This document shows positions 30,930-56,247 of a DNA stretch of 64,000 bases, in pieces (the first letter of the stretch is position 1; each line of letters opens with the position of its first letter). The stretch lies in NCBI RefSeq assembly GCF_008802355.1, contig NZ_VZRA01000001.1, forward strand, positions 1,358,525 to 1,422,524, given 5' to 3'. The stretch comes from Oryzomonas sagensis (GTDB taxonomy: Bacteria > Desulfobacterota > Desulfuromonadia > Geobacterales > Pseudopelobacteraceae). The notes below the pieces were generated by a model. It saw nothing but the letters and a program-made list of their open reading frames with translations. It was not told where the DNA came from and ran no database searches. Both the position numbers and the translations under genes were made by a program.

Positions 30930-31118
30930 AAAACAGCCGTCAGACCTTCGTCCTCGAAAGCCCTTTCGTGCGGCGTCGCGCTGCGGTCCCTCACCCAATC
31001 CCTCTCCCGGAGGGAGAGGGCACGGCATGCTCTCCCCCTCTGGGGGAGAGATAGAGAGAGGGCTGCCTCCTCGGGGCTTGTCTCGCGGGTGCGGCGAGCT
31101 GGCTATTTTTTGAAAACC
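30926..31118. repeat. Dispersed palindromic element, second copy (disrupted)
   Basis: The left end, GTTGAAAAACAGCC, followed by CGTCCTCGAAAGCCCTTTCG, is the reverse complement of the right half of the element at 60029-60214 with few differences. The right end is CGAGCTGGCTATTTTTTGAA, again matching. The ovoA stop codon TGA is within the left end. The middle is replaced by another G/C-rich palindromic element. Confidence 0.65.
30988..31063. repeat. Nested G/C-rich palindromic element (CCCTCACCC type)
   Basis: It starts CCCTCACCC, holds two hairpins (CCCTCTCCCGGAGGGAGAGG and CTCCCCCTCTGGGGGAG), and ends in GAGAGAGGG. It appears to sit inside the other element. A related sequence lies inside polA at 61842-61923. 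Confidence 0.6.
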
Positions 31119-31354: not shown

Positions 31355-31477
31355 GGGACTAGGTATGCACCTGATTGGTTTATTAATAAAGCATTTATAA
31401 TTTGTTTTGACCATGGATTCGTGGTATACAATTTTGCTTTCGTATTTTTACTAGTGTATTTTTAATCGTTAATCGAT

Positions 31478-31558
31478 CTCATCGAAGAGGCAAAACCAGG
31501 GTAACCTGGCGACGCAAAGCTACCTGTCCAGTGCCGGCTGGATAGAGGGGCCGCCGAA
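31478..31558 (+). ncRNA. GEMM-I cyclic-dinucleotide riboswitch
   Basis: The conserved core of GEMM-I is present in order: GGCAAAACC, a hairpin CCAGG-GTAA-CCTGG closed by a GNRA tetraloop, the invariant block GACGCAAAGC, then a second helix (CCTGTCCAG / CTGGATAGAGG) and the closing GGCCGCCGAA. The GNRA loop and the CCTGT helix stand where the tetraloop and its receptor dock in the Vc2 aptamer. The first junction has one extra A, so the position that selects c-di-GMP over 3',3'-cGAMP cannot be assigned by eye. A terminator follows 25 bases later and cheW starts at 31677. Confidence 0.85.
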
Positions 31559-31582
31559 GTGACACAATACGACCATTGTGAC

Positions 31583-31618
31583 AAGGCCCACCTTTGCGTA
31601 AAAGGTTGGGCCTTTTTT
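31583..31618 (+). terminator. Riboswitch expression-platform terminator ahead of cheW
   Basis: AAGGCCCACCTTT / AAAGGTTGGGCCTTTTTT forms a strong hairpin with a T6 tract. Between aptamer and terminator is a small hairpin CACAAT-ACGACC-ATTGTG that may take part in switching. The arrangement implies transcriptional control of the operon. Confidence 0.85.
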
Positions 31619-31676: not shown

Positions 31677-32171
31677 ATGTCGAACGCACTGGTACCGATA
31701 ACGGGGGCTGGCGGGTCGAGTGAGCTGGCCCAACTGGTCAGCTTCAACATCTGCAACGAGGAATACGGGGTCGAGGTCCTGAAGGTGCGGGAGATCATCC
31801 GCATGACCACCATCACCCACATGCCCAACACCCCGCCCTACGTGGAGGGGGTCATCAACCTGCGGGGCAAGGTCATCCCGATCATGTCCATGCGCAAGCG
31901 GTTCGGCCTGGCCGAGACGGCCAGCGACAGCCAGACCCGCATCATCGTCATCGATATCGCCGGGTCCCTGACCGGCTTCATCGTCGACTCGGTAGCGGAG
32001 GTGATCCGCATCACCGGCAGCGAGATCCAGCCGCCCCCCAGCATGACCAGCGGCGGCCTCGAACAGGAATTCATCGTCGGCGTCGTCAACCGGGCCGACC
32101 GCATGCTCATCCTGCTCGACCCGGACAAAATGCTCTCCCGGACCGAACGGGAGTACCTGGGCGAGTGCTGA
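31677..32171 (+). CDS. cheW: CheW chemotaxis adaptor protein
   Basis: A 164-residue CheW that couples receptors to the CheA kinase. Landmarks are QLVSFNICNEEYGVEVLKVR, NTPPYVEGVINLRGKVIPIM with the conserved NLRG, and FIVGVVNRADRMLILLDPDK near the end. The start at 31677 follows GAAAGGAGAGTCA. It is the first gene of the riboswitch-controlled set cheW - EAL/HDOD - MCP; gaps are 45 and 78 bases. No cheA is nearby, so the adaptor must work with a kinase encoded elsewhere. Confidence 0.95.
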   Translation: MSNALVPITGAGGSSELAQLVSFNICNEEYGVEVLKVREIIRMTTITHMPNTPPYVEGVINLRGKVIPIMSMRKRFGLAETASDSQTRIIVIDIAGSLTGFIVDSVAEVIRITGSEIQPPPSMTSGGLEQEFIVGVVNRADRMLILLDPDKMLSRTEREYLGEC

Positions 32172-32216: not shown

Positions 32217-33443
32217 ATGCACGATGAAGCATATCTGATCGGCCGACAGCCGATCCTGAACGGACGGGAAGAGATCGCGGCCTTCGAGCTGCTCTTCAGA
32301 TCGCCGGACTCGGTCACGTCCGCCCGGTTCTCGAGCCCGCTGCGGGCCAGCTCCCAGGTAATCGTCGCCACCCTCTCCGCCATGGGCATCGAAACGCTCC
32401 TGGGCCGGCAGCACGGTTTTGTCAACGTAGACACCGAGCTCCTCATGAGCGACGTCATCGAACTTCTGCCCCCCGAGCGGATCGGACTGGAACTGCTGGA
32501 AAACGTCGAACCCCACCCCGAAATCGTCAAACGGTGCCGGGCGCTCAAATCCCGGGGCTACCGGCTGGTCCTGGACGACCACGAATACAGCCCCGCCTTC
32601 GAGCCCCTCTACGCCGGCCTGGTGGACATCGTCAAGATCGACCTGGTGAAGACCCCCCTCACCGACCTCCCCGCCATGGTGGAACGCCTGCGGCGCTACC
32701 CGGTCAAACTGCTGGCCGAAAAGGTCGAAACCCGCGGCGTCTTCCTGCGCTGCCGCAGCCTGGGCATGGAACTGTTCCAGGGGTATTTCTTCGCCCGTCC
32801 CAGCCTGATCCAGAAACAGCGGGTGGCAAACGCCCTCTCCGGCTTCCTCACCCTCATGCAGCAACTGGCCACCGGCGCCGAGACCGATGAGATCGAGGCC
32901 ACCTTCAAGGAAAACCCGGCCCTGGTCTACAAGCTCCTCATGCTGGTCAACTCCGTCTCCGTCGGCCTGCACGAGAAGATCCGCACCATTCGCCACGCCC
33001 TCACCATCATCGGACGGCAGCAACTCAAACGCTGGGTGCAGATAGCCCTCTTCGCCGGTGACGGCCGCCAGGGCGCCGACAACCCGATCATGCACCTGGC
33101 GGTGGCCCGGGCCACCTTCATGGAAGAGCTGGCCCGCACGCCGCCGCGCATCGACATGTGCGCTCCCGACGAAGCGTTCATGGTCGGCATCCTCTCGGTG
33201 CTGAAGGATGTGTACGAGATTCCCATGGACGAAGTGGTGACCAGCCTGGGGCTTTCCGACGACATCCGCAACGCGTTATCGGACCGCAAGGGTGAGATGA
33301 GCGTCCTGCTCTCCCTGGCAAAAATGCTTGAGGAGAACGCCTTCGGCGAGGCCGCCGAATGCTTCGAGGTGCTGGGAATTCCGCTCCTGTCGGTGCTGGA
33401 CTGCCAGAGAAAGGCCTTCAATTGGCATTTGGGGGCGGCGTGA
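32217..33443 (+). CDS. EAL/HDOD two-domain signalling protein (YuxH-like)
   Basis: A 408-residue protein with an N-terminal EAL-type domain (about 1-200) and a C-terminal HDOD domain (about 200-400). In the EAL part the motif reads AFELLFR, followed by FVNVD, LELLENV, LVLDDHEYS, IVKIDLVK, LLAEKVET and FQGYFF. These carry the Glu, Asn, Asp-Asp, Lys and Glu expected for metal and c-di-GMP binding, although DDFG is changed to DDHE. The HDOD part has the ENPALVYKLLMLVNSVSV stretch. Most relatives are thought to be non-catalytic. It sits in an operon behind a cyclic-dinucleotide riboswitch. Confidence 0.9.
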   Translation: MHDEAYLIGRQPILNGREEIAAFELLFRSPDSVTSARFSSPLRASSQVIVATLSAMGIETLLGRQHGFVNVDTELLMSDVIELLPPERIGLELLENVEPHPEIVKRCRALKSRGYRLVLDDHEYSPAFEPLYAGLVDIVKIDLVKTPLTDLPAMVERLRRYPVKLLAEKVETRGVFLRCRSLGMELFQGYFFARPSLIQKQRVANALSGFLTLMQQLATGAETDEIEATFKENPALVYKLLMLVNSVSVGLHEKIRTIRHALTIIGRQQLKRWVQIALFAGDGRQGADNPIMHLAVARATFMEELARTPPRIDMCAPDEAFMVGILSVLKDVYEIPMDEVVTSLGLSDDIRNALSDRKGEMSVLLSLAKMLEENAFGEAAECFEVLGIPLLSVLDCQRKAFNWHLGAA

Positions 33444-33521
33444 CACCCTCGCGCCATGCCGGCAAGCAGAAAAGAGCATTGCATTGTTATTGGCGCTGAA
33501 GCCATATTCCTGGAGGTAGCA

Positions 33522-35141
33522 ATGAAAAATCTGACCATCGGAACCCGCCTGCTGGCGGGATTTTCTATCGTTTCGCTCTTGCTGGTCATCGTGATCGCCA
33601 CGGCGGTCAACGGTCTCTACACGAGTGGCGACCAGTTGGAAAACGTCAATCGCGTCAGCGACCTGAGCGCCAGGGTCGCAAAAGCGCAGATGAACCTCAA
33701 AAACATCGACGAATCCATCAAGGGGCTGATCCTGGCCGACACCCCCGCGGACCGGGAAAAGTTGACCGCCCGCATCGTGGAATACCGGAAAACATATCGC
33801 GACAATGTCGCCTTTGTTGAGAAAAACACCAAGACACCCGAAGGCAAAAAGCTGGTTGAAAAACTTAAAAATGTCGCTATTGCCGGGGATGAGGTTAATA
33901 AAAGACTCACCGATGCGGCCCTGGCCGGCGACGGCACCCTGTTCAAGTCCCTGATGCACAGCGAGGGAGAAGCGGCGATCGGGCGGACGACCCAGGCCGC
34001 CGACGCCTTGCTGGATTTTTACGAAAAACGGGTCAACCTGCGGGTGGCGAGCGCCAAAGATGCCGGTAAAACGGCCATGGAGGTGATCTACGGCCTTGGA
34101 CTGGCGTCCCTTGTCCTGAGCATCCTGACCGCCTTGGCCATCACCCGCAGCATCAAACGGCCTCTGGGCGAGATCGTGGGTTCCATTACCCATATTGCCG
34201 ACGGAGACCTGACCCGTCGCGTCGCGTACGGGAGCAGGGATGAACTGGGGCAGCTGTGCGCCCATTTTAACGACTTCGTCGGCAGGTTTCAGAATATCAT
34301 GCTGCAGCTCATCACCGATGCCGGCAAGGTCGCTTCGGCCTCAACGCAACTCATGAGCACGGCGCACCTGATGGCGGAAGGTTCCGAGGAGGTCGTCGCC
34401 CAGGCCAGCACCGTTGCGACCGCCGGCGAGGAGATGGCCGCGACCTCCAACGACATCGCCCAGAATTGCCATATGGCGGCCGAGAGCGCCCAGCGCGCCA
34501 ACGATGCCGCCGTGGAAGGCTCCGGCGTGGTGCAGGCGACGGTTGCCGTTATGGGCTCGATAGCGGAGCGCGTCAAGAGTGCGGCAAAGACCGTCGAGTC
34601 GCTTGGCGCACGCTCGGACCAGATCGGCGCCATCGTCGGGACCATCGAAGATATCGCCGATCAGACGAATCTTCTGGCCTTGAACGCCGCCATCGAAGCG
34701 GCCCGTGCCGGTGAGCAGGGACGCGGTTTTGCCGTTGTCGCCGACGAAGTCCGGGCACTCGCCGAACGGACGACGCGCGCAACCAAAGAGATCTCGGACA
34801 TGATCAAGTCCATCCAAAGCGAAACCAGAAGCGCCGTCTCCGCCATGGAAGAGGGCAACAGCGAGGTCGAGCGGGGAACCCAGGAGGCCGGCCGCTCGGG
34901 GAGGGCGCTTGAGGATATTCTGGAGCAGATCAACGCCGTCACCCAGCAGGCGAACCAGATAGCCACCGCCGCCGAAGAACAGACCGCTACGACCGGCGAG
35001 ATCAGCAGCAACATGATGCAGATAACCACCGTCGTGCAAAGGACCTCGCGCGGCGCGGGTGAAACGGCGGAAGCAGCCAAGAGCCTGTCGGCCATGTCGG
35101 AGGAGTTGCAACGCATGGTCAGCCAGTTCAAAGTGACGTAA
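33522..35141 (+). CDS. Methyl-accepting chemotaxis protein with four-helix-bundle-like sensor
   Basis: A 539-residue receptor. Membrane helices are at about residues 10-32 and 185-210. The 150-residue periplasmic part between them is predicted helical, with the pattern [20 protein letters not shown] typical of the four-helix-bundle MCP sensor. A HAMP domain ([20 protein letters not shown]) and the signalling coiled coil follow. The tip [20 protein letters not shown] begins near residue 377. The C-terminal half is clearly related to the MCP at 14472-16121. ATG at 33522 follows TCCTGGAGGTAGCA. It is the third gene of the riboswitch-controlled operon. Confidence 0.94.
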
Positions 35142-56044: not shown

Positions 56045-56215
56045 CGTGCTACAAAATTAAAATTACTTCCGGTCCAAGGGAAGCCGGTGCGAATCCGGCG
56101 CTGCCCCGCAACTGTAAGGGGGGACTGTCACCGCAGGAGGCCACTGTCCGTAACGGATGGGAAGGCGCGGTGACGGGACGATCCCCGAGTCAGGAGACCT
56201 GGCTGGAAGCCGCAT
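56045..56215 (+). ncRNA. Cobalamin riboswitch
   Basis: The B12 box region is unmistakable: GGGAAGCCGGTGCGAATCCG, then CGCTGCCCCGCAACTGTAAG, and further down GAGTCAGGAGACCTGGC. The aptamer ends about 35 bases before the cbiM ATG, with the ribosome site GGGAGC close behind. No clear T-run terminator is seen between them, so control of translation initiation is more likely than termination. Confidence 0.95.
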
Positions 56216-56247
56216 AAGCACTCCAACCGTGGGGAAGGGAGCGTACC

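Follow-up and report, generated by a model that had tools for sequence, protein, structure and literature searches.

The 64,000-nucleotide stretch of Oryzomonas sagensis DNA analyzed here (the window) contains a real GEMM-I riboswitch at positions 31479–31558, and this element probably acts as a c-di-GMP-sensing, type Ia transcriptional OFF switch for the genes that follow it, which encode CheW, an EAL-HDOD protein and a methyl-accepting chemotaxis protein (MCP). We infer its ligand, its direction of switching and its effect in the cell from alignments and computed folds. The first-pass annotation had already placed this operon under riboswitch control; the class, the terminator and the target genes that it named are upheld, and a switching direction, which it did not give, is proposed here. 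The leader is not a chance occurrence, because sister species have kept it together with the terminator and the order of the genes.

A cmscan search of Rfam matched the forward strand at 31479–31558 to RF01051 (c-di-GMP-I) with 59.9 bits (E-value 3.3e-9) against a gathering cut-off of 35 bits, and model positions 1–87 are covered completely, in agreement with the class originally assigned. The motifs quoted at that time, GGCAAAACC, a GNRA loop (GUAA) and GACGCAAAGC, are located at 31489–31521. P2 (model positions 17–32) is a hairpin at 31495–31510 with a GUAA tetraloop and an A17.C32 mismatch at its base. The ligand-binding core, ACGCAAAG, occupies 31512–31519, with the equivalents of C46 and A47 at 31515–31516, and GGGCC (31548–31552) lies at the P3 base, in its 3′ strand; these are the two aptamer strands of the antiterminator described below. 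Upstream, a possible promoter was recognized by eye on the same strand at 31402–31430, consisting of a weak −35 element (TTGTTT), a 17 nt spacer and an extended −10 element (TGG-TATACA). The −10 part is kept in a related genome (G049), and a consensus promoter scan gave no match at this site.

Known GEMM-I types have either G or A at the ligand-selecting position. In the window copy this base had been described as blurred by an extra A in the first junction. Inspection of the position equivalent to Vc2 G20 and Cd1 G11 (Rfam alignment position 11) revealed instead an unambiguous G at 31489, adjoined by Vc2-like G-C and C-G pairs, and the supposed extra base, A31495, is no insertion: it is consensus position 17 and forms the lowest P2 pair, facing C31510. 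The cmscan alignment contains the type Ia residues G31489 (Vc2 G20), C31554 (C92, model position 83) and A31516 (A47) as well as the Vc2-type pairs G12-C37 and C13-G36, the offset between Vc2 and Rfam numbering being a mapping made within the present analysis. The roles of G20, C92 and A47 are described in PMC9049102, and Cd1 G11 has been named the second recognition nucleotide (PMC9262584). GEMM-Ib (cGAMP) RNAs are distinguished by an A at the G20 position, whereas 31489 is G. Indeed, G31489 with its Vc2-like G-C/C-G neighbors makes c-di-GMP the most likely ligand predicted for this aptamer. The A.C mismatch at the P2 base sits beyond the G-C pairs and leaves the register at the selecting base unchanged; in relatives the lowest P2 pair (position 17) is C-G, G-U, A-U or A.C, with A-U in many. 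It could alter affinity or selectivity, because the lower part of P2 has been reported to affect discrimination between c-di-GMP and cGAMP (PMC9262584). In related genomes from this family, the selecting position is C in 9 of 110 GEMM-I loci (L063, L070, L073, L078, L094, L099, L107, L111 and L137) and U in one more, L146.

The strong terminator expected downstream of the aptamer was identified at 31583–31618 (+ strand) as a stem-loop, AAGGCCCACCUUU-GCGUA-AAAGGUUGGGCCUU, followed by U6, which folds at −19.3 kcal/mol. It was missing from a simple terminator scan, probably owing to a one-base bulge in the stem. Between aptamer and terminator lies a linker hairpin (CACAAU...AUUGUG, 31563–31580) that is retained in the antiterminator fold. 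The terminator 5′ arm contains GGCCC at 31585–31589, and the 5′ arm and loop include an octamer at 31592–31599, CUUUGCGU, which is exactly complementary to the core and is referred to as the anticore; the GGGCC/GGCCC helix is nested inside the helix formed by core and anticore. In dinucleotide shuffles, the probability of an 8-nt core complement within the downstream 66 nt was P = 0.004, and that of such a complement with an adjacent GGCCC-type partner was P = 5e-5.

Computed folding of growing transcripts gave aptamer-like structures as far as about 31588. Once the 3′ end has reached 31600–31608, the minimum free energy (MFE) structure is the nested antiterminator (31512–31519/31592–31599 and 31548–31552/31585–31589), in which P2 and the P3 tip are kept. 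Before the terminator completes, the enforced antiterminator has an energy of −44.7 kcal/mol, whereas enforcing the aptamer gives −35.8 to −39.1 kcal/mol. In transcripts that extend to 31612 or further, the terminator class has the lowest energy, and the full-length MFE structure (−54.6 kcal/mol) is the terminator state, with constrained states near-equal at −52.4 and −52.8 kcal/mol; any switching therefore has to be kinetic, which counts against the model. So does the fact that the full antiterminator exists only over a short range of transcript lengths, with the last nucleotides covered by RNA polymerase.

According to the proposed mechanism, at low c-di-GMP the anticore would pair with the core as soon as it is transcribed, and GGCCC would also pair with GGGCC at the P3 foot. 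The resulting antiterminator would dismantle the ligand pocket and sequester the terminator 5′ arm, leading to read-through. With c-di-GMP bound, the core would stay closed and the start of the antiterminator would be blocked; the terminator would then form and the chemotaxis genes would be off. In Cd1, the leader of the Clostridioides difficile flagellar operon, a transient antiterminator likewise destroys the ligand pocket and the ligand promotes termination (PMC9262584). As in this OFF switch, the terminator of the window copy is separate from the aptamer, and its computed antiterminator and the ligand pocket are mutually exclusive. The strands involved are different: the Cd1 antiterminator uses the 3′ aptamer strand around G86/C87, whereas the window copy uses the core and the P3 foot.

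Four Oryzomonas genomes carry the same leader, at five loci in total. It precedes cheW, the EAL/HDOD gene and the MCP gene also in G049 and G052, and in G051 an operon with one extra MCP in front; a second copy in G052 is located elsewhere, before an MCP gene. Across the five loci, aptamer and terminator are near-invariant, as are the nested GGGCC/GGCCC and the anticore, and variation is found in the P3 tip, the loop of the linker hairpin and single terminator-stem positions. Both antiterminator helices are invariant (5/5), and hence there is no covariation signal within this set. In the copy G052b, the terminator stem is changed (the 5′ arm has G for A and the 3′ arm CA for UU) with the anticore unchanged.

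RF01051 has 20 matches in the genome of the window (G000). In fifteen of these RNAs position 11 is A and the adjoining pairs are C-G/U.G, which makes them cGAMP-type; the other five, with G, are the window copy, L002, L003, L004 and L006 (the last assigned by eye). A terminator was detected for 12 cGAMP-type copies, and in every one its 5′ arm lies inside the aptamer, an ON layout; in the window copy and in L004 the arm lies outside it. The latter (G000:C1:754680-754759) is a second G20 GEMM-I RNA, located before genes for a response regulator and CheX. Terminator overlap is also absent from the GEMM-I leaders that precede MCP genes in relatives (L056, L102, L107, L114 and L139). A strict rule in which A20 means ON and G20 means OFF was rejected, since terminator and aptamer overlap in the G20 copies L002 and L003 and are separate in A20 copies of relatives. 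Among chemotaxis-linked loci with a detected terminator, 10 of 10 (about 7 after collapsing orthologues) are non-overlapping, compared with 44 of 75 other loci; that all chemotaxis-linked GEMM-I switches are OFF is suggestive only.

The opposite direction, with c-di-GMP preventing the terminator in the manner of Bc1 and of Geobacter switches of the pilM/pgcA type, appears rather unlikely for the window copy. The GEMM-I RNA Bc1, which precedes an MCP gene, was initially described as an ON switch (PMC11218506), and the pilM cGAMP switch of Geobacter is ON (PMC9262584). However, the shared strand of a pilM-type layout is lacking: the terminator starts at 31583 and the aptamer ends at 31558, and because no aptamer strand is shared, ligand binding cannot directly block the terminator. 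The overlapping, ON-type terminators of the genome all belong to other switches, and the sole fold that competes strongly disrupts the ligand pocket. With regard to the ligand, a preference for cGAMP, or promiscuity, is quite improbable; either would couple chemotaxis to the cGAMP network of the other switches in the genome. The predominance of A at the selectivity position in this genome (15/20), the A.C mismatch at the P2 base and the reported response of the riboswitch before OmcST to both ligands (PMC6456294) would fit such a reading, but G11 with G-C/C-G pairs is of the c-di-GMP type, whereas cGAMP-type copies combine A with C-G/U.G. Finally, the aptamer might be decayed or locked and the terminator might attenuate the operon constitutively, as reported for native Bc1, whose downstream expression is independent of c-di-GMP in vivo (PMC11218506). 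Such a loss of switching is very hard to credit here, as the aptamer, the antiterminator strands and the terminator are conserved while the loops drift and the EAL-HDOD proteins are 83–97% identical.

A pattern search of 277 genomes of the class found the exact anticore at 8 loci in about four lineages, including G022, G037 and G259; it also occurs in further genera and, with G259, in another family. The reversed heptamer occurred at 0 loci in the same search. Reversed core, base swap and shuffles served as controls, and a cross-locus comparison was dropped as a null because the cores are nearly identical across loci. Among 110 loci, complements of at least 8 nt numbered 11 with the true core versus 1 with a core base swapped, and where the core variant has GG, the anticore is changed to match it (GGCTTTCCG, TTTCCGTC). 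In G022 and G259, the anticore lies in the terminator loop region, as at 31592–31599. At L056, L102 and L092 it lies at or past the U tract, where the proposed mechanism would fail; at these loci GCGTCC stands immediately 3′ of the U tract and pairs with a GGACGC core. L006 and L110 have a 9-nt core complement (GGCTTTCCG) well past the terminator, too late for antitermination. The chances seem about even that a recurrent GEMM-I platform with a terminator-loop anticore exists in several lineages, in which ligand and antiterminator would compete for the same eight nucleotides and which would shut chemotaxis genes at high c-di-GMP, with cGAMP switches of opposite layout turning others on.

The downstream genes, all on the forward strand, correspond to those first assigned. 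They are cheW (31677–32171; Pfam CheW, 1.7e-40), a gene for an EAL-HDOD protein with a YuxH-like arrangement (32217–33443; EAL, 2e-10; HDOD, 1e-10) and a gene for a 4HB-HAMP-MCPsignal MCP (33522–35141; Pfam, 5e-46), the ORF of which opens at 33456. Orthologues of the EAL-HDOD protein are 97, 90 and 83% identical, the first being from the nearest named relative, O. japonica. This protein is weakly similar to solved EAL phosphodiesterases; in the alignment, DD, K, E and Q are retained, but the loop that usually follows DD is not. The operon itself lacks cheA. Genome-wide, flagellin gave two matches and the CheW domain 13, indicating that the operon adds a receptor and a coupling protein to existing machinery.

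To date, GEMM-I RNAs before MCP genes are known from Bc1, and OFF switching is known from Cd1. Bc1, located before mcpE in the Bacillus cereus group, likewise combines a GEMM-I RNA with intrinsic termination (PMC11218506), but it has two terminators, a long platform and reported ON or locked behavior. The Vc2/GEMM-Ia aptamer shares the core positions, the GNRA loop, G at the 20-equivalent and C at the 92-equivalent with the window aptamer, which differs in the A.C mismatch at the P2 base and a short P3 tip. The pilM/pgcA GEMM-Ib cGAMP switches of Geobacter have the same fold, come from the same bacterial group and have many counterparts in this genome, yet they carry A at the 20-equivalent and an aptamer-overlapping terminator and are ON switches. 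Riboswitch class and target genes are thus known, and the predicted switching mode is the more unusual part. A search of the open literature, partial in its coverage, yielded no precedent for an antiterminator in which the binding core pairs with the terminator loop, and this absence is weak evidence. In a genome of mostly cGAMP-type, ON-looking GEMM-I RNAs, the window copy looks c-di-GMP-type and OFF and governs an MCP-CheW set. It offers a testable case of near-identical aptamers reading two cyclic dinucleotides with opposite outputs, and the anticore provides a simple sequence rule to predict OFF-type GEMM-I leaders.

Two further elements were observed in the window. A cobalamin riboswitch (RF00174, 114.8 bits) is located at 56053–56221, and a palindromic CCCTCTCCCGGAGGGAGAGGG-type repeat occupies 31000–31063, between a sulfatase-modifying-factor/methyltransferase gene and slyX.
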